A DNA stretch of 64,000 nucleotides from Nitrospira sp. (GCA_018242685.1 JAFEBM010000025.1:1-64000); one strand, 5' to 3'. Positions 1 to 14,582 are shown, numbered from the stretch's first letter. Made by a program: numbers and translations. Notes: generated by a model from the letters alone, not told the origin.

Positions 1-138
1 TGACCCGGGCCTTCGAGATGGGCGCCCCCTTTTCTGACTGTCGAGTGTGTGGACCTAGCGGTTCGGTGTGGGGGTGCTCTGGCCGGCGGTGCATGCCAGG
101 TGTGAGGGAATCTCAAGCTGCCCGGATGAGCGGAAGCC

Positions 139-663
139 TCACGCGGTGGCAAGGGCTTGGCAGGTCAGGTTCTGAAACGTCTGGTCGTTACGTTCGACGC
201 AGTGCGGGTAATGGGCGTTGCCCCGCAGGACACTCCCTCCGCGCTCCACCGAAAGGCCTCGCACATCGACAGTGATGTTGAAGAGTGCGCCGCAGTTCGT
301 CTGGATCAATGCCTCTTCCTTCAGTTCTTCCCGCTCCAGAATGAGCACGAACTCTGCATTCGCCTCTGTCGCGACGGCAAGCGCCACCTGGCGATCCGAT
401 GAGCGGTGGGGAATCTGAGGAAACATCAGGATGTTTGAATAGTGATGAGACCGGAGCCATTCGTCAGCCACGCGGGCGAGGAGAGGATCTCCCCAGATAA
501 GGATGCGCTGTCGTTCACTGGGCAAAAGCGTATGGGAGCCGTTGGTGATTGGAAAATGGACGCCGGAGGGATGTGGTGTAGAGGAGCATCCTTCCAGAAG
601 GAGCAGGATGGAGAGGAAGCACGCGACGGTGATGGCCGAGCCGATGCGATACTGTCGTCTCAC
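139..663 (-). CDS. Putative lipoprotein of unknown function
   Basis: A 174-residue protein that I do not recognise. It begins with a short basic stretch (MRRQYRIG), a hydrophobic segment to about residue 23 and a lipobox-like LEGC with the lipid-acceptor Cys at 26, so it is probably exported and lipid-anchored. The remainder is soluble and mixed alpha/beta. Three later cysteines lie in the C-terminal half. The start codon is GTG; there is no good Shine-Dalgarno, but a perfect TATAAT lies 8 bases upstream, which would suit a leaderless message. It is the last gene of a minus-strand group. Function unknown; the lipoprotein call is an inference from the N-terminus. Confidence 0.6.
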   Translation of the reverse strand: MRRQYRIGSAITVACFLSILLLLEGCSSTPHPSGVHFPITNGSHTLLPSERQRILIWGDPLLARVADEWLRSHHYSNILMFPQIPHRSSDRQVALAVATEANAEFVLILEREELKEEALIQTNCGALFNITVDVRGLSVERGGSVLRGNAHYPHCVERNDQTFQNLTCQALATA

Positions 664-1006
664 AGCCTGAGATTATAACAAACAAGAAGGGCGGTGAAGG
701 TGATCGCGAGGGTAAGGGAGGCTCGGCTATGGGGATTCACGGAACCGAGCCGGCTCCGGCGACCCCTTTTATTTCTCTTTCATTCCTGATTCATGCACGA
801 TTCAAGATCCGACCCCAGCTGTCAGCGATCACGCTGGTTGGACTTTGGTTCGTGTATCGCATCATTCTCGGGTGGATCACTCTTAACGATGGACGACCGA
901 TGTACGTGTGAGCGGAGCATACTTTCAGCAGTACAGTACTTCGGATGTTGATTCTTGCGTGCATCTCAACCATGCAACAGGAGGGTCGCGATACGGGTGA
1001 CCCACT
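664..1006. other. Intergenic region, no gene seen
   Basis: 343 bases between two minus-strand genes. Apart from the -10 box near its left end I see no convincing gene. One 60-codon frame at 729-911 (+) lacks a ribosome binding site and any family resemblance. Confidence 0.5.
672..677 (-). promoter_or_regulatory. -10 box TATAAT directly before the lipoprotein start
   Basis: On the minus strand a perfect TATAAT ends 8 bases before the GTG start at 663. The -35 region is weak (TTCACC only with a 15-base spacer). If used, transcription would start at or next to the start codon. Confidence 0.35.
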
Positions 1007-1762
1007 CTATTCGGAGTAGGCGAGGAGGAGCAGCCCACCGACAATGAACGATGCGCCCCAGGCCATGTTCCATCGATTCCTCATCTGGGGGGATGCGCCG
1101 GGCAGCCAGGCGGCCATGCCTTTGGAGAAAGCCGCCACGACATCGACGATGCCCAACAACATGTGTTGGAACTGGATCTTCGCCGCCTCGGGGTGATTGC
1201 CGTGGGAATGGACGAAGAGGAATAGCCCACCCGTCAGCACTAACAAGACGAGTGGGGCGGCCCACGCCGGGTGCCGAACCCTCCCGAGGCGACGGAGCAT
1301 CTCAATGAGGGCAATGGTGAGGGTCAGAATTCCGTAGGACTTGTGTTCAATCATCTCACGGTCTTTACCGAAAAACGTCTCCACAAAGCTGAGCGACCCA
1401 AGCGGCCACGCGTCACGGTCACTCCAAAACAGCGGGAACCCTCCCATCATACTGAGCGCGCCGGGAAGAATGAACCGAGTCCAGTAGGGCAGCGGATACT
1501 GGAGCGCAGCCCCCAACTCAGCGAGACCCAAAATCACTTCCAACGAACCCGCGAAGTGATGAGCGAACTCTGAAAACGCCTTCCCTTCGGATGATCCTTC
1601 CCAGCGTTCGCTGGCATGACCCCCATGGAGATCATCCGTAACACGCGTTTCATTCGTGACATTCTGATGACCTGAGTCTGTTTGGGCCTGAGCATCTGGA
1701 ACGGGGACTGTCGAAAGTATGGCAAACAGGAGGGCAGACAATAGGGACGGCCACCACTTCAT
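1007..1762 (-). CDS. Histidine-rich multi-pass membrane protein, unknown function
   Basis: I do not recognise the family. From the ATG at 1762 the protein (251 residues) starts with a clean signal peptide (MKWWPSLLSALLFAILS, ending AQA). A His-rich soluble stretch follows (HGGHASERWEG, FAHHFAGS), then about four or five hydrophobic segments. Histidines recur beside the membrane segments (EHKSYG, VHSHGNHPE, FQHMLLG), as in copper- or haem-binding membrane proteins such as CopD or b561 types; this is only an analogy. An in-frame ATG at 1825 would add 21 residues before the signal peptide. I prefer the shorter form because its N-terminus makes a normal leader. Neither start has a strong Shine-Dalgarno. 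Confidence 0.55.
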   Translation of the reverse strand: MKWWPSLLSALLFAILSTVPVPDAQAQTDSGHQNVTNETRVTDDLHGGHASERWEGSSEGKAFSEFAHHFAGSLEVILGLAELGAALQYPLPYWTRFILPGALSMMGGFPLFWSDRDAWPLGSLSFVETFFGKDREMIEHKSYGILTLTIALIEMLRRLGRVRHPAWAAPLVLLVLTGGLFLFVHSHGNHPEAAKIQFQHMLLGIVDVVAAFSKGMAAWLPGASPQMRNRWNMAWGASFIVGGLLLLAYSE

Positions 1763-1840
1763 ATATGAAGAACCGATCAGAAGAGTTAGGAAGCCAAATT
1801 CAAGGTCAGATCTTGTTCTGTGCATTTCTATCGTCCGCTA

Positions 1841-2170
1841 TCACCGGCCGACTCTAGTCGCCATGGCGAAGTGGAAAAAATAGCGGTCGAGGGAAGCTAG
1901 ATCACTGCCGTAGGTATTCCCGCCGAACATGGCGTCGCACAACAGTTCGCGTGCGCGGGTCAGTTCCTTCCGCCGACCTTTCCACCGCTCGTCTGCAATC
2001 GTCAAGTCCAGCAGTTCGATAGCACGGTCGAAAGCCTGCTCGCAGCGCCGCGGATCCTTTCCATACCAACGGGCGGCGCGTGCCACGTCGCTGCCGACAT
2101 TGGCCAGTTGCTCCACGAGCGAGAGAGTGTGCCATCGTCCTGCGGCGAGTTGCTCGTGGATGATCTCCAT
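1841..2170 (-). CDS. Small helical protein, unknown function
   Basis: About 109 residues from the ATG at 2170. An upstream TTG at 2218 is less likely. The sequence looks all-helical: a first helix (EIIHEQLAAGRWHTLSLVEQ), a region with an RAARWYGKDPRRCEQAF segment, and helices rich in Glu, Arg and Leu (AIELLDLTIADERWKGRRKE, ELTRARELLCDAMFG). There are no transmembrane segments. The pattern resembles small four-helix proteins such as HEPN-like or DUF families, but I see no diagnostic motif. It lies upstream of, and in the same direction as, the His-rich membrane protein gene. Confidence 0.5.
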   Translation of the reverse strand: MEIIHEQLAAGRWHTLSLVEQLANVGSDVARAARWYGKDPRRCEQAFDRAIELLDLTIADERWKGRRKELTRARELLCDAMFGGNTYGSDLASLDRYFFHFAMATRVGR

Positions 2171-2506
2171 AATGTAATGCTCTATCAAAGTTTGGAAAAG
2201 AGTGGGTACGGCACGCAAGATTGCGGGTTGCGCCTGCTTCTGTCAATCTCAAATTTGTCCACAGGAGGGTTTAGGGGGAGTGGCTGCTCGTCCCTCTCTA
2301 TTTCTTTTCCCTCTGAGGAGTGGTCGGATAGTCTCTTATTGCACGCGTTTTCCTGTGAGCCTCAGCAAACACGCTAGGTCTGCTCGGCGACAGAAGTTGC
2401 TTTCTTCTCCGTCTTCCTATCTGCGGGGTAAGCAGGTGCTTTCCTTATTGCGCGCATTGACCGAGTGCATTTCTCTCTTCTCACAGGTGAAGGGGAGGAG
2501 CAGGCG

Positions 2507-2569
2507 GTCCTTTACTGCGTGCATTGAGGGACCACCATTTCATCGTGGGGCCTCAGCGAGCACAAGGAC
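2507..2569. repeat. REP-like palindromic element
   Basis: The ends pair as GTCCTT (2507-2512) with AAGGAC (2564-2569). Inside, GTGC (2519-2522) pairs with GCAC (2560-2563), GAGG (2526-2529) with CCTC (2551-2554) and CCAC (2532-2535) with GTGG (2545-2548). The result is a bulged hairpin of about 63 bases. Parts of the left arm recur at about 2334 and 2444, and a CCTCAGC-plus-ACAC piece recurs near 2359. It could be a REP-type element or a structured transcript leader. Confidence 0.5.
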
Positions 2570-2602
2570 TGCCTGGTCTTCCCCTTCACAACCCTCCCAC
2601 CC

Positions 2603-2632
2603 TTGCATATCGTTCTTCAGCCCTCGTACAAT
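2603..2632 (+). promoter_or_regulatory. Candidate promoter of the radical SAM pair
   Basis: TTGCAT, an 18-base spacer and TACAAT (five of six match the -10 consensus). The start site would fall near 2639, giving a leader of about 60 bases before the ATG at 2702. The -35 box is weak. Confidence 0.4.
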
Positions 2633-2701
2633 ACTTTTTTTCGAGTCTAACTCATTGGCTTTCCAGTCATTTAGGTAGCTGAAGAGAGTAGGTAGGTCGG
2701 G

Positions 2702-4600
2702 ATGAAAGTCGAGTATACGAAGGGGGATCGGGCATCCAAAGAGCTGATTCAGCTCCACCGCCGGACCTCCTTTGAGACCAGCGGCCGGAAGATGAAAGTG
2801 CTGCTGATCTTTCCGCCTGACTGGTACCCTTCCGAACCCTATCTCAGTCTGCCCTCTCTCACAGCGATTCTCCGTCAAGCCGGTCATACGGTCATTCAAA
2901 AAGACATCAACTGCGAGATGTGGGACTGGTACTTGAGCGAGGAGTTTCTGAAGAAGGTCTTGCGCCGGGTGCCGAAGCAGTTGGATCGGCTCCGCAAGTT
3001 GGCCAAGAAGCGGGAACTGACTGAGTGGGAAATGGATGTACAGCTGGCGCTCTGTGATGTGTCGCGTCCTCGTATGGAGAAATTAATCCGCGATGCGGAA
3101 GAGGCGAAGCACATCATCAGAAGCGAGAAGTTCTACGATATCGATAAATTAGAATGGGCAATTCAAGTGTTTCGCGAAGTCACATCGGTTATTTCATTGG
3201 TCTATGCCCCGGCACGGATCTGCATGCCGCCGATGGAGACGGATTTGTCGTACAAGCCATACGTCTCGGCTGAGGTGATGGATGCCGTGCAGGATGAACA
3301 GGTCAACGTATATCGTGATGTGTTCGACCATCTGGTCAAGCCGGTAATCCAGGCCGAGCAGCCGGATGTGGTCGGGATCTCGATTGTGCTGCAACAGCAG
3401 ATGTTCTCGACGATGACCTTTTGCGCCCTTATCAAACAGCACTTTCCCCACATTCATATTACGATCGGCGGCAATACAGTGACCCGCCTGCGCGACGTGC
3501 TGCCGGAGTCGCCGCTCTTTCAGTATTTCGACAGCGCCGTGGTCTACGAAGGGGAGACGGCGTTTATGCAATTGGTCGAAGCAGTCGGCGCCAAGCAGAG
3601 CTTGGCCGATGTGCCGAACACGATCTACAAAGACGAGACGGGCGTCCATGTTTCTCCACTGAGTTATGCGGAGGATATGGCTGCGCTGCCGCCGCCGGAC
3701 TTCGACGGATTGCCGCTCGAGAAGTATTTCGTCCCAACCCGTATATTGCCTTATCTGGCGACGCGAGGGTGTTACTGGGGGCGCTGCGAATTCTGCGACC
3801 ACGGCGAGGGTTATACCGCAGGCTATCGATCGAAGAAGATCCAGGATATTCTTACAGACGTCACCTATCTACGCGACAAGTACGACGCCAAACATTTTCA
3901 TTTTACCGACGAGTCCTATCCGCCGGCGCTCTTTCGTAAACTTTCTCGCGGATTGATCGAGAACAACATGGACATCTTCTGGACAACGCATATGCGGTTC
4001 GAGAAAAGTCTGTTGGAAGACGCCGTCTGGCAGGATGCGAAGGAGTCGGGATGCCGCTATCTGCATTTCGGCTACGAGTCGGGAGTCGAGCGGGTGCTGC
4101 AGCTGATGGACAAAGCGACGACAGCGGAAGTCATGACGAAGCATCTCAAGCTCACTGCGGACGCCGGCATCTGGAACCACTGTATGGGTTTCTTCGGCTT
4201 TCCCGGCGAGACGAAGGAAGAGGCCTGGCAATCAGTGCAGTTCTTGGAGCAGAACAAGGATCATGTCCATTCACTCGGGTTCGGTACATTCGACCTGGGG
4301 CGGCACAATCCGGTGGCGAAACATCCGGAGAAGTGGGGCGTGACGGCATACAAGAATCCCGATTGGGATCTGGCGTTGGATTACTACTACACGGTGAAGA
4401 ACGGCATGAACATCGAAGAGGCGGAGCGGGTGTTCGAGCAGTTCGAACGGAACCACAATCCCGGCTGGGATTTGCGCCTCTATATTCGGGAATATATCTT
4501 TCTTTATATTTCGAGATTTGGTTTAGGAAAGCTTCAGGATTTGCAGTATCAAGCTGTCAAGACTGCCGGAGTGGTGCCGACGTTAGCGGGGAAAATGTGA
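2702..4600 (+). CDS. B12-binding radical SAM protein, copy 1
   Basis: A 632-residue enzyme of the cobalamin-dependent radical SAM class. KVLLIFPPDWYPSEPYLSLP (from about residue 32) is the first strand and loop of a B12-binding Rossmann domain. PDVVGISIVLQQQM and ITIGGNTVTRL (about 220-270) are its later part, without the DxHxxG motif, as is usual in this class. Between them sits a helical insertion of roughly 150 residues. The radical SAM core begins at PYLATRGCYWGRCEFC; the cluster cysteines are 357, 362 and 365, so the motif is CX4CX2C rather than CX3CX2C. HFHFTDESYPPALF and CMGFFGFPGETKEEA are typical core strands. The ATG at 2702 gives an N-terminal tail like that of the paralogue; an ATG at 2792 is the alternative. 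The substrate is unknown. A near-copy follows 33 bases downstream. Confidence 0.85.
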   Translation: MKVEYTKGDRASKELIQLHRRTSFETSGRKMKVLLIFPPDWYPSEPYLSLPSLTAILRQAGHTVIQKDINCEMWDWYLSEEFLKKVLRRVPKQLDRLRKLAKKRELTEWEMDVQLALCDVSRPRMEKLIRDAEEAKHIIRSEKFYDIDKLEWAIQVFREVTSVISLVYAPARICMPPMETDLSYKPYVSAEVMDAVQDEQVNVYRDVFDHLVKPVIQAEQPDVVGISIVLQQQMFSTMTFCALIKQHFPHIHITIGGNTVTRLRDVLPESPLFQYFDSAVVYEGETAFMQLVEAVGAKQSLADVPNTIYKDETGVHVSPLSYAEDMAALPPPDFDGLPLEKYFVPTRILPYLATRGCYWGRCEFCDHGEGYTAGYRSKKIQDILTDVTYLRDKYDAKHFHFTDESYPPALFRKLSRGLIENNMDIFWTTHMRFEKSLLEDAVWQDAKESGCRYLHFGYESGVERVLQLMDKATTAEVMTKHLKLTADAGIWNHCMGFFGFPGETKEEAWQSVQFLEQNKDHVHSLGFGTFDLGRHNPVAKHPEKWGVTAYKNPDWDLALDYYYTVKNGMNIEEAERVFEQFERNHNPGWDLRLYIREYIFLYISRFGLGKLQDLQYQAVKTAGVVPTLAGKM

Positions 4601-4633
4601 GCGAGGGTCAGATTCCGTGAAATTGATGATCCA

Positions 4634-6580
4634 ATGAGTGAACTGCTCCAAATAGACGGTTTGGCGCCGCCGGCGAAGGGGACGCAGAAGAAGTCCAAAG
4701 TTATGCTCATTTTTCCACCCGAGTGGGTGCCGACGGCGCCATACCTTGCGTTGCCGTCGCTGACAGCCGTCTTGCGTGAGGCCGGGCATACGGTCATCCA
4801 ACGCGATATCAACATCGGAATGTGGGATCACTTCTTCAGCATGGAGTTTCTGATTTGGGTGAAGGCCCGGTTGGGCATGCAGCTGAAGGCCCTGCAAGAG
4901 AAAGAGAAGGCAGGAGTCTTGAGTGAGCGGGACGTGACTCACATGGCGGTTGTGGAACAAGCCTATGCCCTTGATGTTTTCGATCTGGCGGATCGAGCCG
5001 AAGATGCCAAGTTGATTGTGCGAGGCGAGCGTTTCTATGAGGCGGAGACGCTGGAAGGGGCGCTCAACACCTTCCGTGAAACGATGGTCTATATCTCCGC
5101 CGCTTATTATCCCGCATCCCTTGTCTTCTATCCGATGGAAAGTAATTTAGGCTATCGCCCCGGTGTCTCCAAAGAAGTGTTCGCCTGTTTGGAAGATGAA
5201 CAGGTGAACGTCTATCGAGATCTCTGCAATCAGCTGGTCATGCCGGACGTGGCGAGAGAACAGCCTCACGTGGTCGGGATTTCCATCGGGACGCAGATGC
5301 AGTTGTTGGCGGGATTGACGTTCGCTCGGATGATCAAGGAAGCGTTTCCAGAGATCCATGTCGTGGTAGGCGGCAACGTCATCACCAGGCTGCAGGAAGA
5401 TCTCTCGAATCACGAGCGGTTCTTCAAAGAGGTGTTCGACTCGGCGATTCTCTACGAGGGCGAGCATGCGTTGCTGTGGCTCATCGAAGCGTTGAATGAT
5501 CAGCGGCCTCTCGCTTCAGTTCCAAACTTAATCTATCGCGATGAGTCGGGCCTCCATCGGAATCCGGAAATCTACACCGAGAAGACGACCGCGCTACCCT
5601 TGCCGGACTTTGAGGGCATGCCGCTGGATCGCTACTTTGTTCCGGAACTGATCATTCCCTATCTGGCCACGCGCGGTTGCTATTGGGGGCGCTGCACGTT
5701 CTGCGACCATGGCCAAGGGTACTTCGATCAGTACCGTGGAATGCCGGCTCAGCTGGTGATCGCCCAGATCAAGGCTCTCCGGGATAAGTACCACTGTCGG
5801 CATTTTTTGTTTAGCGATGAGTCCTATCCACCCGCATTGTTCAAAAAAGTCTCGCAACTCCTGGTTGACCAAGATGTCGGGATCAAGTGGACGACGCTCA
5901 TCAGGTTTGAAGAAACACTGCAAGATCAAGCCACCTGGAATCTTGCGGCCAAGGCCGGCTGCTGTACGCTCTACTATGGGATGGAGTCAGCGAACGAGCG
6001 GGTCTTGAATCTCATGGACAAGCACGCTCGGAAAAGCGTTATTGAACGCAATCTCCAGATGGCAGCGAAGGCGGGGATTTGGAACCATGTGATGGCTTTT
6101 TATGGATTTCCAGGGGAAACGTTCGAAGAGGCCTTGGAAACTCGCCAGTTTGTTCTCGATCATCAGCCGGTGATTCACTCACTGGAACTCTTCTACTTTG
6201 TGGCCTACCGCCATACTCCCATGGTGCGTCATCCGGAACAATTCGGCATTACGATCCACAAGCAGGAAGAGTACGATCTACCGCTGGACTATTACTACAC
6301 CTTGAATGACCCCAGCGCGCTGTCGTGCCTCGACGCGATGCAACTCTGTGAGGAATTCTATAAAAACGATTTTCATCCATGGGCCGTGCGGGTAAACTCT
6401 CGCGAACACGTCTTTCTCTATATCTCGAAGTTCGGGACGAACCAGTTGCCGAAAATTTATGCTCAGCAGACGCAGCCGGTGGGGTCGCCGGACGGAGTGT
6501 CAGGCTTGATTACCTGGCCGGTCGCGCACGTGGAGGGAGACGAGGGCATGTCTCGCGTGACGAGTCACGAGATCGGGTAA
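4634..6580 (+). CDS. B12-binding radical SAM protein, copy 2
   Basis: A 648-residue paralogue of the preceding gene, collinear over almost the whole length: KVMLIFPPEWVPTAPYLALP at the start, the same helical insertion, PHVVGISIGTQMQLL and VVVGGNVITRL for the B12 domain, then ATRGCYWGRCTFC with cluster cysteines 349, 354 and 357 (CX4CX2C). FLFSDESYPPALFKK and HVMAFYGFPGETFEEA match copy 1. Like copy 1 it ends in a region with FLYISKFG. The C-terminal 40 residues (after QTQPVGSPDG) have no counterpart in copy 1. The 33-base gap suggests co-transcription. Such pairs may act as a heterodimer or on successive substrate positions, but nothing in the sequence names the substrate. Confidence 0.85.
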   Translation: MSELLQIDGLAPPAKGTQKKSKVMLIFPPEWVPTAPYLALPSLTAVLREAGHTVIQRDINIGMWDHFFSMEFLIWVKARLGMQLKALQEKEKAGVLSERDVTHMAVVEQAYALDVFDLADRAEDAKLIVRGERFYEAETLEGALNTFRETMVYISAAYYPASLVFYPMESNLGYRPGVSKEVFACLEDEQVNVYRDLCNQLVMPDVAREQPHVVGISIGTQMQLLAGLTFARMIKEAFPEIHVVVGGNVITRLQEDLSNHERFFKEVFDSAILYEGEHALLWLIEALNDQRPLASVPNLIYRDESGLHRNPEIYTEKTTALPLPDFEGMPLDRYFVPELIIPYLATRGCYWGRCTFCDHGQGYFDQYRGMPAQLVIAQIKALRDKYHCRHFLFSDESYPPALFKKVSQLLVDQDVGIKWTTLIRFEETLQDQATWNLAAKAGCCTLYYGMESANERVLNLMDKHARKSVIERNLQMAAKAGIWNHVMAFYGFPGETFEEALETRQFVLDHQPVIHSLELFYFVAYRHTPMVRHPEQFGITIHKQEEYDLPLDYYYTLNDPSALSCLDAMQLCEEFYKNDFHPWAVRVNSREHVFLYISKFGTNQLPKIYAQQTQPVGSPDGVSGLITWPVAHVEGDEGMSRVTSHEIG

Positions 6581-6587
6581 AGAAGGT

Positions 6588-6672
6588 TGAGGATAAGGTT
6601 AAGGCTGCGCACGAGACAGATTAAAGCTGAGGCTGAGGATAAGGTTAAGTTCGAAGAAAATCCTTAACCTCA
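6588..6672. repeat. Degenerate GGNTNA hexamer repeats in inverted arrangement
   Basis: Between two convergent genes the plus strand carries runs of six-base units: GGTTGA GGATAA GGTTAA GGCTGC, then AGCTGA GGCTGA GGATAA GGTTAA. The 16-mer TGAGGATAAGGTTAAG occurs twice (6588-6603 and 6634-6649). CCTTAACCTCA (6662-6672) is their complement, so the second copy can form a hairpin with it. It may act as a two-way terminator; it also resembles telomere-type simple repeats. Confidence 0.6.
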
Positions 6673-6681
6673 ACTTTGATC

Positions 6682-6936
6682 TTAGCCTTCCGTATCCGGG
6701 ACGAATACAGCCGACAGTAATGCGTAGGCGGCTTCAATCGTCCGAGTCATTTCTTCGGCTTTTCGAAACTGTTGCATGTATTGCTTCGGATTGTTGGTGA
6801 GGCCGGCATAGCGCGTGGGGGTCCAGTTGTAGAGCTGGACACGCTTCGCCCGATCCAGGTCTTCGGTGGTGATGGGCAGCGTGAGGCCAAGAATTTCCAA
6901 CGCATGGGCGACGTCCTGTTCGGTGATGGGGTCCAT
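6682..6936 (-). CDS. Small J-domain-like protein without HPD
   Basis: 84 residues. The order of elements recalls a DnaJ J domain: helix I with ALEILGLTLPIT, helix II with EDLDRAKRVQLYNWTP, and helix III with FRKAEEMTRTIEAAYALLSA, where J domains have KAEEMFKEINEAYEVLS. The HPD tripeptide that contacts Hsp70 is missing; the same place reads WTPTRY. If the resemblance is real the protein cannot be a normal Hsp70 co-chaperone and may be a binding module. The gene converges on the radical SAM operon and is transcribed away from phzF. The coding call is fairly safe; the fold is an inference. Confidence 0.55.
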   Translation of the reverse strand: MDPITEQDVAHALEILGLTLPITTEDLDRAKRVQLYNWTPTRYAGLTNNPKQYMQQFRKAEEMTRTIEAAYALLSAVFVPDTEG

Positions 6937-7041
6937 GGGCGGAGTCTGTCAAAGGGGGCGAGATCTGTCAAATGCCGGCGGTTGTTTTCTCATAGCATGA
7001 TCGGGTTCTCAGGTGTTATCCGGAGGAGTTTGGAAGTAACC

Positions 7042-7971
7042 ATGGCTGAACCAAGGTCTCTAAAATTCTATCAGGCCGACGTCTTTACCTCTCAACCGTT
7101 CGGCGGCAATCCCGTCGCGGTTTTCCCCGACGCCGATGGCCTAACAGACGACGAGCTCCAGCAGATTGCGCGGGAGATGAATCTATCGGAGACAGTCTTC
7201 GTTTTTCCACCGACCGATCCTGCCGCAGTCGCCCGGTTGCGGATCTTTACCCCGACTCAGGAAATTCCCTTTGCCGGCCATCCGGTACTGGGCACATTTT
7301 ACGTGTTGGCCCAGCTCGGGAGGGTTTCTACTCGGGAACAGGTGACGCATGTCACGCAGGAATGTAATATCGGCTTATTTTCGGTCGAATTGCATACGGA
7401 ACAGAGTCGTGTGGTGCGGGTCGTCATGTCTCAACCCAAACCGGAATTTCTCGATCCTCTCAACACCATCGACGATGCGTATGTGGTCGGCGGATCTCTC
7501 GGCTTGCCGAAGCACGTGATCGCTGACAGCAAATGGCCCCTCCAAGTCGTGTCGACCGGTTTGCCGGTCTTGATCGTGCCGGTGCGAACGTTGACGGCCG
7601 TCCGGTCGATCAACCCTGATGCCTCGGCCATCATCAACGTCTGCGAACGGTTCGGGGCCAACGGGATTATGGTCTTCACAACGGTGACGGTTGAGTCGTT
7701 TGCGTCTGTCCACGCGAGGATGTTTGCTCCGAAAATCGGCATTTTGGAGGATCCTGCGACGGGGAGCGCCGGAGGGGCGCTTGGAGCGTACCTGGTTCAG
7801 AACGGCGTCGTTGAAGTTGGACCGAGGACGGATATTCTGATTGAACAGGGCTACGAAATCGATCGGCCATCCCGGATTCTGGTGCAAGTTGAGTCGGACG
7901 ACGACATGATCCAAGGTGTGAAGGTCGGCGGGCAATGTGTGATGGTGGTGGAAGGAGTGTTGAGGTTTTGA
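7042..7971 (+). CDS. PhzF family isomerase/epimerase-like protein
   Basis: A 309-residue protein of the PhzF (phenazine biosynthesis-like) fold, two similar halves of the diaminopimelate epimerase type. Family marks are [20 protein letters not shown] at the start, [11 protein letters not shown] with the general acid/base Glu at 50, [17 protein letters not shown], and [16 protein letters not shown] in the second half. Most members act on unknown small metabolites; nothing here suggests phenazine synthesis. The ATG at 7042 follows GGAAG at 7032-7036; an in-frame ATG at 6997 is possible but the shorter form begins like the family. The stop codon lies inside the left arm of a large inverted repeat. 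Confidence 0.85.
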
Positions 7972-8151
7972 AACGGCAGGGCGTGCCTATCGGTATAGGA
8001 GAGGCCGGTATGGTTGTCCTCTTGCTCGCCGAACGCGGCACACAAGATCCATCGTATTGGTAAGTCAAGGGCGGTGCTCGTTCAACGCGCGCAATCGAGG
8101 ATCAACCATACCGTCCTCGGTGCGCTCGATTGTCCCGCCGTTTCAAAACCT
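7963..8151. repeat. 189-bp imperfect inverted repeat (fold-back element)
   Basis: The left end AGGTTTTGAAACGGC (7963-7977) matches the complement of the right end GCCGTTTCAAAACCT (8137-8151) exactly over 15 bases. Further in, CGGTATGGTTG (8006-8016) matches CAACCATACCG (8103-8113). The arms are alignable over about 60 bases with mismatches between these blocks. Each arm can also form smaller hairpins, for example CAATCGAG (8092-8099) with CTCGATTG (8125-8132). The element contains the phzF stop codon and ends 9 bases before the Shine-Dalgarno of the next gene. It may be a MITE-like element or a structured regulatory RNA. Confidence 0.7.
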
Positions 8152-8175
8152 TGATTGTGAACGGAGGATGAAGAA

Positions 8176-9204
8176 GTGAAGGCGGTGTTGTTTCGCGAAC
8201 ATGGTGGACCGGACAAGCTCTCGTACGAAGAGATGCCGATGCCGAAAATCGGTCCGCAAGACGTGTTGATTCGGGTCAAGGCCTGCGCGCTGAACCATCT
8301 CGATATTTGGGTCAGGCAGGGGAGTCCTGCCTATGCCGTTTCCTTACCCCATGTTGGGGGCTCGGATGTCTCCGGGACTGTTGAGCAAGTGGGGACCCAA
8401 GTCGAAGGTATTGCTGTCGGAACACGAGTCTTTGTGTCACCCGGTATCAGTTGCTGGAATTGCGAGTTCTGCATGGCCGGACGAGACAATATGTGCCGAA
8501 CATACAATCTTTTGGGAGCTGGAATGCACGGCGGCTATGCCGAGTATGTGAAGGTTCCTTTTCGGAATGTGCTGCCGATACCCGAGAATATAACCTTCGA
8601 ACAGGCCGCGGCGTTTCCGCTCGTTTCGGTCACGGCCTCGCACATGCTGTTTGCACTGGCCGAGCTCCAGCCTGGAGAAACTGTGCTCGTGATGGGAGCG
8701 GGGAGCGGTGTCGGAATGATGGCCGTTCAGTTGGCGAAGCTGTCAGGGGCGCGTGTGATCACTATCGTCGGTTCCGATGACAAGATTCCCAAAGCCGTGA
8801 TCCTGGGAGCCGATGCGGTCATCGATCACTCCAAGGAACAGGTCTCGGAGCGAGTCAAATTGCTGACGGAAGGGCGAGGTGTCGATGTGGTTGTCGAACA
8901 TATCGGGCCGGAGGTATGGGACAGCTGTGTGGAGTCGCTCTCAAAAGGCGGCCGGTTGATCACATGCGGTGCAACTACCGGTGGGGACGTCAAGCTGAAC
9001 CTTCGCGATCTCTATTCCCGTCAGCTCACGATCAAGGGATCCTTTATGGGCACGAGAGCGGAACTGGTGAAGGTCGCTGAACTGATCGGCCGGAAACGGT
9101 TGATGGCCGTGATCGAACGTGCATTCCCTCTCCAGGAAGCCCGCGCTGCCCAGGAATTGATGACCAGTCGAAAGTTTTTCGGCAAGATCGTGCTTGTCTG
9201 CTGA
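8176..9204 (+). CDS. Zinc-type alcohol dehydrogenase / quinone oxidoreductase family
   Basis: A 342-residue medium-chain dehydrogenase. The N-terminal GroES-like part has KACALNHLDIWVRQG and HVGGSDVSGTV. The structural zinc lobe is present as CWNCEFCMAGRDNMC (four cysteines). The NAD(P) Rossmann domain has VLVMGAGSGVGMMAVQLAKL. The usual catalytic zinc ligand pair of true alcohol dehydrogenases is not obvious, so the substrate may be a quinone or aldehyde. Translation starts at GTG 8176, 8 bases after ACGGAGG (8161-8167). The leader sits directly behind the 189-bp fold-back element. Confidence 0.85.
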   Translation: MKAVLFREHGGPDKLSYEEMPMPKIGPQDVLIRVKACALNHLDIWVRQGSPAYAVSLPHVGGSDVSGTVEQVGTQVEGIAVGTRVFVSPGISCWNCEFCMAGRDNMCRTYNLLGAGMHGGYAEYVKVPFRNVLPIPENITFEQAAAFPLVSVTASHMLFALAELQPGETVLVMGAGSGVGMMAVQLAKLSGARVITIVGSDDKIPKAVILGADAVIDHSKEQVSERVKLLTEGRGVDVVVEHIGPEVWDSCVESLSKGGRLITCGATTGGDVKLNLRDLYSRQLTIKGSFMGTRAELVKVAELIGRKRLMAVIERAFPLQEARAAQELMTSRKFFGKIVLVC

Positions 9205-9395
9205 GTCCTCAGTGTCCGATCGCCGCACCCTCTCTCGCCACGGAATCCGAACGTTCGTGACGAACCTCCATGGATGATGTGCGTAACGGTCTCGCAGGTT
9301 CCGCTCATTCATGATAATCTAGACCGGACCAAACGTGGGTAGCGTTCGAACGTGGACCGCTAACTGCGATCATATGAATATGAAAGGGGGAGGAG

Positions 9396-9830
9396 ATGGC
9401 TAGCGTTAGTCAGATTGTGAACAAGCGTCCAAAGTCGATCGGGCCGAAGACCTCGATTGCCAGTGCGGCCAAGACGATGCGTCAAGCGCGTGTGGGGTCG
9501 CTATTAGTGAAAAAGGGGAAACAATTGGTTGGAATCGTGACGGATACCGATATCGTGCGGAGGGCTGTGGCGCTGGGGAAGCCGCTGGGGAAGCTCACCG
9601 TCGAGAAGATCATGACGTCTCCCATTTGCACGATCGAGGGAAGTCAGTCGATCGATGATGCGCAGGACATGATGGCGGACTTGGGCGTGCGCCATCTCGG
9701 TATCACGAAAGGCGGCAGTATCGTCGGGGTGATCTCCGTGCGCGACCTGCTGCTGCACTATAAGCGCTACGCGCAATCGAAGATTTCGGCGGAAGCGAGC
9801 TATTCGGAACCAAAGATTGCGCAGGACTGA
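9396..9830 (+). CDS. CBS-domain pair protein
   Basis: 144 residues made almost only of two CBS motifs: residues 7-60 (SLLVKKGKQLVGIVTDTDIVRRA) and 70-125 (IMTSPICTIEGSQSI, HLGITKGGSIVGVISVRDLL). CBS pairs bind adenine nucleotides and act as energy-sensing or regulatory modules; the partner is unknown here. The start follows GGGGGAGGAG. A clear paralogue lies inside the haem gene run at 40204-40596. A strong hairpin follows the stop codon. Confidence 0.9.
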   Translation: MASVSQIVNKRPKSIGPKTSIASAAKTMRQARVGSLLVKKGKQLVGIVTDTDIVRRAVALGKPLGKLTVEKIMTSPICTIEGSQSIDDAQDMMADLGVRHLGITKGGSIVGVISVRDLLLHYKRYAQSKISAEASYSEPKIAQD

Positions 9831-9841
9831 TGCAGGACCGA

Positions 9842-9887
9842 GTGCTGAGCTTTGCGCGTTGAGGTGCGCAAAGCAAGCACTCAGCAC
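9842..9887. terminator. Bidirectional terminator hairpin
   Basis: GTGCTGAG-CTTTGCGC pairs with GCGCAAAG and then CTCAGCAC, interrupted by a 6-base bulge (CAAGCA) on the right side. It lies between the convergent CBS and moaB genes, touching the end of both. There is no long T run. Confidence 0.65.
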
Positions 9888-9888
9888 A

Positions 9889-10401
9889 TCACTTTGTCAG
9901 TTCTCCAGCGAGGTGGCCGAGCTCGGGAAGAATGAGCTTTTCCATCGCGAGGCGGACGGCGTTTTCGGAGCCGGGGATGGAGAAAATCATATGTCCGTTG
10001 AGGATACCGGCGGTAGCGCGGGTCATGAACGCGGGTGAACCGATTTCTTGATACGTCAGAAAACGAAAGATTTCTCCGAATCCATCAAGCCGCTTCTCTA
10101 ACATTCCGTCCACAGCTTCAAAGGTCGAATCTCGCCGCGAGATTCCTGTGCCGCCGTTGATGATGATGACCTGCGCGTCCGCATTGGCTGTGCCCTGGGC
10201 GATTCGAAATTGGATCTGACTCGGTTCGTCCTTCACAAGATAATAGGCGGCGACGGTATGGCCTTGCCCTTCAAGCAATTTCTGAATCAATCGGCCGCTG
10301 GTATCGGTTTCAGGCGTACGGGTATCGCTACAAGTAATGACGATGCATCCGATTGAGCTGGGAGCATGGTCTTTGTGTTCGTGATGGCTTGGTGTGCTCA
10401 T
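9889..10401 (-). CDS. moaB: MoaB/Mog family molybdopterin protein
   Basis: 170 residues of the MoaB/MogA fold, which adenylylates molybdopterin or shares that fold. IGCIVITCSDTRTPETDTSGRLI is the first strand and loop, VIIINGGTGISRRDSTFEAV is the diagnostic GGTG motif, and FSIPGSENAVRLAMEKLILPE the C-terminal part. The first 15 residues are His-rich (SHHEHKDH) and unlike the family. It is last in a minus-strand run after a GGCT-like gene and a 2Fe-2S ferredoxin gene. Confidence 0.88.
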   Translation of the reverse strand: MSTPSHHEHKDHAPSSIGCIVITCSDTRTPETDTSGRLIQKLLEGQGHTVAAYYLVKDEPSQIQFRIAQGTANADAQVIIINGGTGISRRDSTFEAVDGMLEKRLDGFGEIFRFLTYQEIGSPAFMTRATAGILNGHMIFSIPGSENAVRLAMEKLILPELGHLAGELTK

Positions 10402-10490
10402 GTGTCGAGGGATACGCTATCAGTAATCAGTTCGAGCAATCAAGCGGCACTTTCATCCGACCGGTTGAAAGGGACCGTCGATGACGAAGT

Positions 10491-10817
10491 TTATTTCCAC
10501 ACCGAGTCTGGATTCAGCTTCGATGCCGGTGTTCCTTTCGCGACATGTTCATCAAGGATGGTGACGACGTCCGCCTCAGTGACTTTGGAATACCAGGTGT
10601 TGTCCGGATAGATGACGACCGTCGGGCCCTGCTCGCAGGGGCCGAGGCAACCTGTGGCGCTCACGAGGACTTCTCCGGGCGGGACGGCGCGTTGCATCAG
10701 TCCCATGTTGAAGGCCATGAGCAGCTGCGCAGCACCGGCCGACCCGCAAGACGGTTTCGGGTGGCCGGGAGGGCGGGAATTAGTACAGACGAGAATATGA
10801 TATTTTGGTTTTGGCAT
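10491..10817 (-). CDS. Thioredoxin-like [2Fe-2S] ferredoxin
   Basis: 108 residues from the ATG at 10817, which has a good Shine-Dalgarno (GGGGAGA). The four ligands are Cys 11, 24, 57 and 61 in the pattern C-x12-C-x32-C-x3-C (VCTNSRPPGHPKPSCG and ATGCLGPCEQGP), which is the mark of thioredoxin-like 2Fe-2S ferredoxins (Shethna protein type, NuoE-like). An electron-carrier role is expected; the partner is not visible. A longer frame upstream adds 34 residues that do not fit the family. Confidence 0.88.
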   Translation of the reverse strand: MPKPKYHILVCTNSRPPGHPKPSCGSAGAAQLLMAFNMGLMQRAVPPGEVLVSATGCLGPCEQGPTVVIYPDNTWYSKVTEADVVTILDEHVAKGTPASKLNPDSVWK

Positions 10818-10864
10818 AGTCTCCCCAATAAAAAATCGATATGGAACCTGTAGCGACGACACGC

Positions 10865-11308
10865 TTATCGCGGACGATACGACTCCCACTCCTGGATCAC
10901 TTCCTCCGGAAACTTCCACTGTTTGAGCCCTTTCACCACCCAGTCCAGGTAATGCTCTTTGGGCTTAAACTTCCCGATCGGGTTCGCTGCGTAGGTGGTG
11001 ACGAGTTCTTTTTCTCCGCTTGCTGCAGAGACGGTGACTTGGAGGTGGCGGTACGCTCCCTGCGGCACGTCCTGCTCAAACTGATCCATGATGTTCACGT
11101 CTTCGTCCGTTACTTCAAACACTCCGCCCCAGGTCCTTTCGCCTTGTGAAGGCACGATGCTGACGAGCCCGCACCGCCACTGGGACGACCATCGGCAAAA
11201 TTTGACGGTATGGTCCGGCAAGGTCGCGAGATAGAGAAATCTGTGTTCCGGAGCCCGCCGTTTGAGTTGTGAGGGATTGAGGAGATCACCGTACAAAAAG
11301 AACTTCAT
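10865..11308 (-). CDS. Gamma-glutamylcyclotransferase-like protein
   Basis: 147 residues. FFLYGDLLNPSQLKRRAP is the substrate-loop motif of the GGCT fold (YGxL/N), and GGVFEVTDEDVNIMDQFEQ matches the region with the family's acidic catalytic residue and the LDxxE-like segment. Members release 5-oxoproline from gamma-glutamyl peptides or amines, or have other amide substrates. It heads a minus-strand group with the 2Fe-2S ferredoxin and moaB. Confidence 0.75.
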   Translation of the reverse strand: MKFFLYGDLLNPSQLKRRAPEHRFLYLATLPDHTVKFCRWSSQWRCGLVSIVPSQGERTWGGVFEVTDEDVNIMDQFEQDVPQGAYRHLQVTVSAASGEKELVTTYAANPIGKFKPKEHYLDWVVKGLKQWKFPEEVIQEWESYRPR

Positions 11309-11503
11309 GCAACGTACTTATCCTGTGCCTGACCGTCTTAACGTGTGCTCGTACTTGTAACACACGGGCTTTTCACCAGACAAGCGGTCCTCGCACGACC
11401 AATTCTCGAAGCTGCATTGACATGACCTCCGGGCCTTTCTAAGATGCCGTGCAGTCAGCGCGGTTCCAGGATTTGGGCCTCTTACACTGAGACGACACTC
11501 GGT

Positions 11504-11998
11504 ATGGCAGACGGCAGTACCTTCTCTCGATCACTCGGCACCCACTTCATCCGCTATGCAGTTGCGGCAGCCCTTCTGCTGGGCGGACTCTACTATACAT
11601 GGACCACGCTGCCGTCGGCGACTCCGTTGAGAGGCAAGCAAGAGGTGGAAGCATTGGCCTTGGTCCAGAATCATCCCGCGATTGGGCACTCCACAATCGC
11701 GCAAGCCATGAACGAGCATGTCCGTGTGATGAAGGATCGCCGGCAGGGGGTTCGACTCGGTGAATGGCGAGTGAAGCATGTTGAGGGAGATATTTATGAG
11801 ATCCGTGTGCAACTTCGTGATCAGGGGGTAAGCGGGCAATGGTTCGAGCGAGAATTCATTTGGCATGCCCATCTTCAACTCAAGAAGGTCAATGCTGCTT
11901 CGCTACCAGCCGATGGGGTGACCCCTAAAGCGCCCGACGCTGATGAGGGAACTGTTTCTCCCCTGCCTGGTCCACCAAAAGTTAAACCGGCCCTTTGA
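11504..11998 (+). CDS. Single-span membrane-anchored protein, unknown function
   Basis: I do not recognise it. From the ATG at 11504 the protein has about 164 residues: one membrane segment (YAVAAALLLGGLYYTWTTLP) near residues 17-37 and a periplasmic domain with an alternating strand pattern (LGEWRVKHVEGDIYEIRVQLRDQ) typical of a small beta sheet. The tail is Pro/Lys-rich. A start at 11444 is possible but adds an unlikely N-terminus. Its last 17 bases overlap the end of the convergent Rieske gene. Confidence 0.6.
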   Translation: MADGSTFSRSLGTHFIRYAVAAALLLGGLYYTWTTLPSATPLRGKQEVEALALVQNHPAIGHSTIAQAMNEHVRVMKDRRQGVRLGEWRVKHVEGDIYEIRVQLRDQGVSGQWFEREFIWHAHLQLKKVNAASLPADGVTPKAPDADEGTVSPLPGPPKVKPAL

Positions 11999-12311
11999 GC
12001 GCCGGTGGGATGGCGATCCGCACTTCCTCCCCTTGGATCCGAACCTCGCAGTAAGCGACTTGGAAGTTCGGATTACCGACTCGCTCTCCAGAAATAACGT
12101 TGAATTTCCAGCCATGCCAGGGGCATTCGACAATCGCCTCGCACAGTTTCCCTTCTCCGAGCGGGCCGCCTGCGTGGGGACAGGAGTTATCGATCGCATA
12201 AAAAGCTCCCCCCACGTTGAAGACCGCAATCCAAATCCCATCGACTTCCACGGTTCGTCCCGTGCCGGGCGGAATCTCGTGCGTGAAGGCCACTTTGACG
12301 AAATCGTTCAT
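11982..12311 (-). CDS. Rieske [2Fe-2S] protein (ferredoxin type)
   Basis: About 109 residues from the ATG at 12311; an ATG at 12320 is an alternative but sits only 2 bases from the GGAG. Counting from 12320, the cluster ligands are C47-P-H49 (NSCPHAGGPL) and C66-x2-H69 (ECPWHGW), the complete Rieske signature. There is no membrane anchor or signal peptide, so it is a soluble Rieske ferredoxin like NirD or the electron carriers of dioxygenases. The 3' end overlaps the convergent neighbour by 17 bases. Confidence 0.9.
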   Translation of the reverse strand: MNDFVKVAFTHEIPPGTGRTVEVDGIWIAVFNVGGAFYAIDNSCPHAGGPLGEGKLCEAIVECPWHGWKFNVISGERVGNPNFQVAYCEVRIQGEEVRIAIPPALKGPV

Positions 12312-12469
12312 CAGGGGCATTTCTCCGTCGGTTCGCCCTGTGCGGCGGCAGATGAGCGCTTGCTTGATTTCACCGCCACCTTATGGCATAGAACTATCAG
12401 CGTGTAGTCCTGCCCCGCGGAAACACTCCCAGGCCGTTGTGGAGGCCCGATTGGGGATGAGGTTCCTGC

Positions 12470-13015
12470 ATGGAAATGACCCTCCTGCTCAACGCGACCT
12501 ATGAACCCCTGCGGGTCGTGCATTGGCAAAAAGCGATCGCCCTTCTCTGGCAAGGAAAAGTCGAAGTCTTGGAAGTGTACGACAGGGAAATCCATGGTAT
12601 TTCCCTGTCGATCAAACTTCCAGCCGTGATGCGGTTGTTGAAACTGGTGAAACTGAAAGACAGTCATCGTGCCGTCAAGTTTTCCCGCATCAATATTTTT
12701 ACGCGAGATGGGTACTGTTGCCAATATTGTAACCACAGGTTTCGGACGGAAGAGCTGACGTTTGATCATGTCGTACCCATCGCCAAGGGTGGGAAAAAGA
12801 CGTGGGAAAATATCGTGACCGCCTGCTGGCGGTGCAACAATCGGAAGAGCGGGCGTACGCCGGAGGAGGCCGGCATGAAGTTAAAGAAGCGACCCATGAA
12901 GCCTCGATGGAGCCCTGTCATTACCATCACCATCGGCATTCGCAACACACCGGAAAGCTGGCGTGATTATCTTTATTGGAATATGGAGCTGGATGCGGAT
13001 CCGGCCGATCCGTAG
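12470..13015 (+). CDS. HNH endonuclease family protein
   Basis: 181 residues. The nuclease part is C84-x2-C87 (CCQYC), LTFDHVVPIAKGGKKTWEN with D99-H100 and N114, then C119-x2-C122 (ACWRCNNRK): the zinc-bound HNH fold. The first 75 residues (LLLNATYEPLRVVHWQKAI) are the usual N-terminal part of a widespread chromosomal HNH family whose job is not settled. The start follows GGGGATGAGG. It does not lie next to any phage or restriction gene. Confidence 0.88.
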   Translation: MEMTLLLNATYEPLRVVHWQKAIALLWQGKVEVLEVYDREIHGISLSIKLPAVMRLLKLVKLKDSHRAVKFSRINIFTRDGYCCQYCNHRFRTEELTFDHVVPIAKGGKKTWENIVTACWRCNNRKSGRTPEEAGMKLKKRPMKPRWSPVITITIGIRNTPESWRDYLYWNMELDADPADP

Positions 13016-13241
13016 CGCTCGATCTTGAAAAGATCCTCTTCAGACAGTGTATCCGCGATTGTTATCTCTCACCTACCTCTGCCAAAACTGCGCGGGAGAC
13101 ATTCCAGCCCTTCGAGCGTGCTGTATTATAGCGATGGACTGATCAAAAGTGAAAATGAAGTGCGGATTTTTGAAATCCCTCTTGCATGATGGATGTCCAT
13201 TCTCGGATACTGAGCCACTCGGTTGAAACGGGAGTACCATC

Positions 13242-13901
13242 ATGGCTGCCAATCCGGGTTTTCCCTTGGTCTTGGACGTAAAAGGCTGGCTGGTTTTGGT
13301 GATCGGTGGCGCTGAGGAGGCATCGGAAAAATCCCAACGCCTGCTCGAGTCCGGTGCGCGGGTCACGGTGATCAGTCCTACGCTGAATGAACCGCTACGC
13401 CTGCTGGCGGCTTCCGGGAAGATCATCCACCGCGGGCGACAATTTCGTGAAACGGATCTCGACCACGCTATTCTCATTCTCAATACCATTCGAGGCGATC
13501 GTGATTTTGCTCGGATGCTGTCGGCTCAAGCCAGAGAAAAGCATGTGCTGCTCTGGTCGGTAGACTATCCGGACGCAAGCAGCGTTACGATGCCGGCAGT
13601 CGTGGAAGCGGGACATGTGCGGGTTGCGATCAGCACAAGCGGAGTGGCGCCGGCTCTTTCCGGGTTCATGAAGGAGGATCTGGAACAGATCCTCGATACG
13701 GAATTCATCGAATTCGTCGAGTGGCTTGGACACCTGCGTGAACAGGCCAAGGCGAACGAACCGGACGCCGAAAAACGGCGGGCATTGTTCCATGACGCGT
13801 TAGACGGGTTTCGTTTCCTCGGCAAGGTACGATATCCTAAAGTATGGACAGAAAGGCGAACTGAGGCCGTGACGAACAAACAATCTGATACGGAGAAATA
13901 A
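13242..13901 (+). CDS. Precorrin-2 dehydrogenase / sirohydrochlorin ferrochelatase-type (CysG N-domain)
   Basis: 219 residues of the CysG(N)/Met8p family, which oxidises precorrin-2 with NAD+ on the way to sirohaem. FPLVLDVKGWLVLVIGGAE is the first strand and NAD loop (GGAEEAS, where the family usually has GGGxVA). Later come VTVISPTLN, ILNTIRGDRDFARML and VDYPDASSVTMPAVVEAG, then AISTSGVAPALSGFMKEDLE. It lacks the fused methyltransferase domain; that activity is encoded as a fusion at 38586-40151. A 12-base gap links it to the thiamine-binding protein gene. Confidence 0.88.
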   Translation: MAANPGFPLVLDVKGWLVLVIGGAEEASEKSQRLLESGARVTVISPTLNEPLRLLAASGKIIHRGRQFRETDLDHAILILNTIRGDRDFARMLSAQAREKHVLLWSVDYPDASSVTMPAVVEAGHVRVAISTSGVAPALSGFMKEDLEQILDTEFIEFVEWLGHLREQAKANEPDAEKRRALFHDALDGFRFLGKVRYPKVWTERRTEAVTNKQSDTEK

Positions 13902-13913
13902 AAAGGAGCATCG

Positions 13914-14222
13914 ATGGTTCTACTGGAATTCAGCATGTCGCCGCTGGGAAAGGGCGAGAGTGTCGGAAAATATGTGGCCCGTTCGTTGGATCTCATCGAC
14001 AAGAGCGGGGTGTCCTATCGCTTGAACCCAATGGGAACGGTCCTTGAGGGGGAATGGGAGGAAGTCTTTGCAGTGGTGCAGAAATGCTACGAGCGGATGA
14101 AAAAGGATTGCAACCGCATTTCCTGCGCGATCAAAGTCGACTATCGAAAGGGTCATTCCGGGCGTCTTCAGAGCAAGGTCGCGAGCATTGAAAAGAAGCT
14201 GAAGCGATCAATGAAACAATAG
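13914..14222 (+). CDS. MTH1187/YkoF-type thiamine-binding protein
   Basis: 102 residues of the MTH1187 (DUF77) family: VLLEFSMSPLGKGESVGKYV, SYRLNPMGTVLEGEWEEVF and RISCAIKVDYRKGHSGRL. Relatives bind thiamine or HMP and assemble as ferredoxin-like dimers or tetramers. AAAGGAG lies 6 bases upstream of the ATG, and the gene follows the precorrin-2 dehydrogenase gene by 12 bases, suggesting translation from the same message. Confidence 0.85.
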   Translation: MVLLEFSMSPLGKGESVGKYVARSLDLIDKSGVSYRLNPMGTVLEGEWEEVFAVVQKCYERMKKDCNRISCAIKVDYRKGHSGRLQSKVASIEKKLKRSMKQ

Positions 14223-14582
14223 ATCGCTGAACGTTTCCGCGATACGTGCACAGGCTTTTCTCACAATTTTGAAAGCCTAACCCATTCGTCGTTTGCCCGC
14301 AAAAGTCTTTCCTCAATGCTCTTCTAGCGCGTGGAGTGCTTCCCCAACCAAGCCCTTCTTTGGACTGGCTCGCCCCCGCTGAGGCAGGGGACGAACCTTC
14401 GTATTGAAACCACACACTCCCGTCTATATACTCGCTCGCTGTACTTAGGATTCCTGCAGGCAAACTGTACGGGTGTTATGCTCGGTTGCCTGCAAGGTCC
14501 CTCAGCAGGCGTCACGGCTGTTTGCGATCTGCACCAGTTCCAATTCCGTCCAACGGACATCTTGTTTCGGGGGGATGAGGCC
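14223..14582. other. Intergenic leader region of the hybrid kinase
   Basis: 360 bases. It holds the promoter at 14404-14432 and, behind it, an inverted repeat TGCAGGCAA (14455-14463) / TTGCCTGCA (14486-14494) with a 22-base loop in the transcribed leader. A GC-rich hairpin (CCCC...GGGG near 14372-14389) lies before the promoter. The reading frame of the kinase stays open back to 14331 but that part looks non-coding. Confidence 0.6.
14404..14432 (+). promoter_or_regulatory. Sigma-70-type promoter of the hybrid kinase
   Basis: TTGAAA, a 17-base spacer and TATACT; each hexamer matches five of six consensus bases. The predicted start near 14439 gives a leader of about 145 bases that includes the inverted repeat at 14455-14494. 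Confidence 0.6.

Follow-up and report, generated by a model that had tools for sequence, protein, structure and literature searches.

Two B12-binding radical S-adenosylmethionine (SAM) proteins, here called A and B, are encoded in tandem on a 64,000-nucleotide stretch of DNA from Nitrospira sp. (GCA_018242685.1 JAFEBM010000025.1:1-64000; the window), which belongs to a Nitrospira draft genome of 4.2 Mb. Members of this genus are among the major nitrite oxidisers, and the locus raises the question of whether this pair is a distinct family of enzymes and what modification it might carry out. We found that A and B are real and conserved, with no characterisation in NCBIfam, the PDB or the literature cited here; what is distinctive is the pair itself, the enzyme class being already known and A/B being new as a family. 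The two genes and the evidence for each are as follows.

2702..4600, + strand: gene A, B12-binding radical SAM protein, 632 aa (open reading frame (ORF), Pfam, AlphaFold2 model; orthologues in 80 genome contigs)
4634..6580, + strand: gene B, B12-binding radical SAM protein, 648 aa (ORF, Pfam, AlphaFold2 model; 3' of A in 79 of 80 loci)

Thirty-three bases separate the stop codon of A from the ATG of B, and the two proteins share 47% identity over 606 aa and are collinear over their full length (BLASTP), which bears out the initial annotation's description of closely spaced collinear paralogues. In Pfam both matched B12-binding (PF02310) and Radical_SAM (PF04055) only, above the gathering scores, and thus both show the N-terminal B12-binding domain and the radical SAM domain required of class B radical SAM enzymes. 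The order of the genes was constant in the contigs carrying A that were fetched from the GTDB species collection, the one exception being a contig that ended shortly after A, and a few copies of B were interrupted by contig ends or frameshifts. Named records in this sample were Nitrospira or Nitrospirota except for two loci labelled 'Nitrosospira' (L023) and 'Nitrospinota' (L088) by their submitters, the sequences of which are of Nitrospirales type despite the names.

To place the pair among lineages, 396 Nitrospirota genomes were scanned with A as the query at E <= 1e-60, a search in which the matches comprise A, B and a third paralogue, C. The four Nitrospirales families in this set (f1 to f4) probably correspond to Nitrospiraceae, UBA8639, NS-4 and UBA2166, the last being the sole family of the order that is negative for nitrite oxidoreductase (NXR) (Kop et al. 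2025, PMC12342949); NxrA was found in f2 and f3 and gave no match in f4. At least one match was present in all 141 listed genomes of f1 to f3 and at least two in 128 of them, while none of the three f4 genomes had a match at this threshold, one remote match of 25% identity being seen there. This is the pattern of a diagnostic gene, carried by most NXR-bearing and absent from NXR-negative Nitrospirales. Outside the order only two single matches (32-34% identity) were obtained among the 396 genomes. The initial annotation had left it to be checked whether the two genes always occur together and in which lineages; they do so at all loci but the truncated one and, among the genomes searched, are confined to the order Nitrospirales.

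In a phylogenetic tree A, B and C each formed one clade with 100% support and A grouped with B (99/95), the placement of more distant relatives being unsure because of long branches. Seventy alignment columns were fixed differently in A and B, and the cluster cysteines lie outside these 70. As judged from the tree, A and B are an ancient duplication that split once, before the three NXR-bearing Nitrospirales families diverged, and not a recent duplication in one strain. Since all motifs are kept in both proteins, a pairing of an active with an inactive partner is unlikely.

Both proteins carry a cluster motif with one more residue in the first spacing than the usual CX3CX2C, as had been noted initially.

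3770..3796, + strand: motif CYWGRCEFC of A, CX4CX2C for [4Fe-4S]/SAM, Cys 357/362/365 (sequence; invariant in alignment)
5678..5704, + strand: motif CYWGRCTFC of B, CX4CX2C, Cys 349/354/357 (sequence; invariant in alignments)

The three cysteines, as expected of the cluster ligands of class B radical SAM enzymes, were unchanged in 45 of 45 aligned orthologues of A and B. No DxHxxG motif was found in either sequence, which fits base-off/His-off cobalamin as in the cobalamin-dependent radical SAM class. The AlphaFold2 (AF2) model of A (mean predicted local distance difference test score, pLDDT, 82; predicted template modelling score, pTM, 0.86) and that of B (mean pLDDT 75; same layout, lower confidence) both run from Rossmann strands 1 and 2 through a set of helices to the remainder of the Rossmann domain and then the radical SAM barrel, with the cluster loop modelled at low confidence in each. 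In A the Rossmann domain begins with a strand (32-37), a helix (49-59) and a strand (63-68), continues into inserted helices (69-77, 80-103, 108-118, 122-139, 142-145, 147-167, 189-196 and 203-219) and resumes with its third strand at 223-227, so that the helical block of about 150 residues described earlier is borne out by the models of both proteins.

2795..2905, + strand: A, first part of the split B12 Rossmann domain, residues 32-68, strand-helix-strand (AF2)
2906..3358, + strand: A, helical block, residues 69-219, between Rossmann strands 2 and 3 (AF2; relatives spaced alike)
3368..3589, + strand: A, second part of the B12 domain, residues 223-296, VGIS ... GGN ... EGE (PF02310 match 210-291; AF2)
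4808..5260, + strand: B, helical block, residues 59-209 (AF2 secondary structure)

The further proposal that the cysteine spacing and the helical block together define a distinct family did not survive comparison with relatives. Full-length single-gene relatives with CX4CX2C occur in Rhizobium phaseoli, Sinorhizobium meliloti, Parabacteroides, Aureibacter and other Nitrospirota, and wherever the two landmarks could be placed, ~180-200 residues separate Rossmann strands 1 and 3. In the same search, two short radical SAM proteins of B12 type carry CX3CX2C ~190-210 residues from the N terminus, which leaves no space for such a block. Because both features recur in single-gene relatives of other phyla, they are markers of a broad group and not of the pair, and neither was retained as a family marker. 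The same spacing has been published for the methylases GenD1, GenK and Sis14 (PMC4340712) and can be read in the PDB chain of OxsB, SRGCDYSRCTFC. A broader family of ~730-aa proteins with HGCYWKQCTFCD (L004:898-3069 and homologues), to which no family name is given here, was also seen in Nitrospira and, outside its phylum, in Ideonella, Parabacteroides and Aureibacter.

Scores against characterised families were far below the cut-offs: 123.5 bits for A and 107.5 for B against 281.85 for TIGR03975 (ribosomally synthesised and post-translationally modified peptide (RiPP) maturation radical SAM C-methyltransferase), 121.4 and 146.3 against 600 for TIGR04479 (PhpK family P-methyltransferase), and 55.5 and 38.3 against 360 for TIGR04014 (MgmA, the methyl-coenzyme M reductase (MCR) glutamine methylase). 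Membership in all three was rejected on these scores. The best PDB sequence match was OxsB (profile E 5e-13), in keeping with the initial view that the pair has no characterised close relative. The top Foldseek matches of A were the cobalamin-dependent radical SAM enzymes TsrM, OxsB, MgmA and CysS; those of B were the same with the addition of TokK, and the diol dehydratase AprD4 was also among the fold matches.

On these sequence and model data we give a probability of roughly 0.5 to the reading that A and B are both active enzymes of the cobalamin-dependent radical SAM class, with methylation as their likeliest reaction, and serve a Nitrospirales-specific modification. A single gene would have been duplicated in tandem, once, in the common ancestor of the Nitrospirales that bear NXR, and the two copies would later have specialised. 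Cobalamin would be bound base-off in the split Rossmann domain and a [4Fe-4S] cluster would sit on CX4CX2C; following the chemistry of the class, the cobalamin would be methylated by SAM, and a second SAM would be cleaved at the cluster to a 5'-deoxyadenosyl radical, which would take a hydrogen atom from an unactivated carbon of the substrate, the resulting substrate radical then receiving the methyl group from methylcobalamin. That the two enzymes are specialised, co-conserved and individually complete suggests two steps or sites on one substrate, or a complex, and A and B would probably act in one pathway through two successive or two-site methylations or as a single assembly. The target would be an order-specific molecule, plausibly, as a first guess prompted by MgmA and Mmp10, a component of the respiratory machinery for nitrite oxidation, whether protein or cofactor. 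What the data show are the domains, motifs, predicted fold, pairing, age and distribution of A/B and the position of C in the NXR accessory cluster; methylation, the shared pathway and the link of A/B to nitrite oxidation are what we infer.

Paralogue C lies inside the conserved NXR accessory cluster. In the window's genome it is a protein of 592 aa (L147:9423-11198 = G000:C9:127413-129158) with the motif CYYKDCAFC and ~34-35% identity to A over nearly the full length. It adjoins a gene with an EB_dh domain (NxrC type) and one with a Nitrate_red_del domain (TorD/NarJ type), with TatA-like, TPR, NHL and pentaheme cytochrome genes as further neighbours, in an order that is constant in genomes of f1, f2 and f3. 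This cluster matches the NITMOv2_3614-3631 region, part of a set of 140 genes that Kop et al. (2025, PMC12342949) give as diagnostic of NXR-bearing Nitrospirales, and its nxrC_2 and TorD-like chaperone genes are transcribed at a high level in N. moscoviensis (PMC6606698); the function of C is undescribed in the papers cited here. For A and B themselves a link to NXR is no more than suggestive. The maintenance of the pair across three families, together with a paralogue in an NXR accessory cluster, points to an undescribed, lineage-tied chemical modification. Many genes specific to NXR-bearing Nitrospira lineages are without known function (PMC12342949).

The immediate neighbourhood of the pair contains one small gene that converges on B.

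6682..6936, - strand: J-domain-like ORF, 84 aa, converging on B (translation; same family in 63 loci)

The family of this ORF is a frequent neighbour, found beside A/B at most loci. Its relatives gave weak matches to DnaJ (PF00226) below the gathering score, with the HPD changed. Beyond it lie PhzF-like, alcohol-dehydrogenase-like, CBS-domain and MoaB-like genes, named by sequence inspection; no named pathway gene was recognised among these downstream genes, as stated initially, and their synteny was rejected as functional evidence since the order persists where A/B are gone. In many Nitrospirales a 412-aa protein with the radical SAM motif CPVKCEFC is encoded between the J-like and PhzF-like genes (L148:4687-5922, L149:14096-15337, L025:14294-15529); it was not found in the window's genome, and an Mmp10-like/DUF512 identity is not claimed for it (score 20.6 against a gathering score of 25; no PDB match even as a profile). 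Directly 5' of A and on the same strand, several genera have a gene with a class I methyltransferase domain (L152:8620-9882, L153:7641-9236, L071:8653-9885, L079:7894-9402), the homologue of which in the window's genome is on another contig (C31). Rfam gave no cobalamin riboswitch at the gathering threshold in six orthologous loci and chance-level matches only in positions 1-16000 of the window, and no small precursor ORF upstream of the pair was conserved among ORFs of at least 70 aa.

Several points weigh against a methylating pair tied to nitrite oxidation. Not all cobalamin-dependent radical SAM enzymes methylate, OxsB and BchE being examples. The absence from f4 is a single phylogenetic contrast and is confounded by phylogeny, and A/B were distant from nxrAB in every genome looked at except one, the deep-branching G375 (L214, G375:C76), in which they lie ~4.5 kb from nxrA and nxrB; this adjacency was set aside as evidence, a few chance cases being expected among >100 genomes. 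Genome G396, a member of Nitrospiria with no NxrA match, has a sister of C (it also encodes a second related protein; L206:7500-9260, L207:8523-10694). G323, in which NxrB and C are present, lacks A, B and the J-like gene, all lost together: the A/B gap (L192) lies mid-contig (585 kb), and the rest of the flanking genes are still there. An NXR-bearing strain can therefore tolerate loss of the pair, and nitrite oxidation does not strictly depend on it. In addition, 140 genes show the same presence/absence pattern (PMC12342949). In several further genomes without A/B a contig edge falls at the locus, and the presence test for nxrB is imperfect in draft genomes, as evidenced by the lack of an nxrB match in the window's own genome. 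In G371 (L194) the A/B locus is missing within a long contig, the break also shortening the MoaB-like gene; G323 and G371 are natural comparison strains without A/B.

The main rival to the methylating pair, which we consider unlikely but a serious contender, is that A and B modify a lineage-specific lipid or other small molecule unrelated to NXR, the co-occurrence with NXR reflecting common ancestry. HpnR and ladderane-type B12-radical SAM proteins are thought to modify lipids, and A/B did match the HpnJ, TIGR04072 'lipid biosynthesis' and HpnR models, but weakly and in all cases far below cut-off. The class I methyltransferase gene that precedes A in several genera would suit such a pathway, yet the copy in the window's genome is elsewhere and no conserved lipid gene was recognised next to the pair; the loss of A/B from G323, which keeps NxrB and C, is as this explanation would have it.

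Clearly less probable is a non-methylating use of cobalamin, such as the cyclisation or ring contraction carried out by BchE and OxsB. In favour are OxsB, which gave the best sequence match in the PDB, ranks among the top fold matches and has CX4CX2C in common with A/B, and AprD4, which is a fold match as well; the fold matches, however, also include TsrM, TokK, CysS and MgmA, the same spacing is found in the methylases GenD1 and GenK (PMC4340712), and methylation is the commonest reaction of the class (PMC11659888). Least probable of all is a role for A/B in RiPP or natural-product maturation, as methylases of the TIGR03975/PhpK type, since the best NCBIfam matches (TIGR03975 and TIGR04479) and the natural-product-like surroundings, by sequence inspection, of some plasmid single-gene relatives (Sinorhizobium, Desulfocapsa) are set against scores under half of the cut-offs, the lack of a conserved small precursor ORF by the pair among ORFs of at least 70 aa (the lone small conserved neighbour being J-domain-like and convergent), a presence in nearly all genomes of three families unlike that of a natural-product cluster, and the distant long branch taken in the tree by a Nitrospira protein that does belong to TIGR03975 (597.9 bits).

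An extension of the methylating-pair reading, which we regard as a long shot by analogy, would see A, B and C as one methylation system, dependent on B12 and dedicated to this task in nitrite oxidisers, whose methyl groups would go to a subunit of NXR, to the cofactors of NXR or to a cytochrome that partners it. Without B12, for which it is auxotrophic, N. marina ceases to consume nitrite; A, B and C would be further users of B12 in its family if f2 is UBA8639, and such a system, if true, would add B12-dependent enzymes to the reasons for the B12 need of Nitrospira.

Among known systems, TIGR03975 and TIGR04479 are the best NCBIfam models for A/B, over residues ~190-555, but in the TIGR03975 member seen the spacing is longer (CWWGEKHHC-x2-C). 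The gentamicin C-methyltransferases GenD1 and GenK are cobalamin-dependent radical SAM enzymes with CX4CX2C (PMC4340712), likened to A/B by published motif, and belong to an antibiotic pathway. OxsB (PDB 5ul2/5ul4; ring contraction) shares the N-terminal B12 Rossmann domain, the radical SAM barrel and CX4CX2C, but is a natural-product enzyme encoded by a single gene with ~17% identity over the fold match. C resembles A/B in its CX4CX2C, domain layout and families, and differs in being a single gene in a conserved cluster, in its separate clade and in its motif. In methanogens MgmA and Mmp10 modify MCR and are thus B12-radical SAM methylases that serve the key energy enzyme of their lineage. 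MgmA (PDB 9ccb, MCR glutamine C-methyltransferase) matches A/B in sequence and fold, but has CX3CX2C, is shorter (450 aa) and is only remotely identical, while in Mmp10 the cobalamin domain is C-terminal (PMC11659888). If true, an A/B/C methylation system would be the nitrification counterpart of these modifications of MCR.

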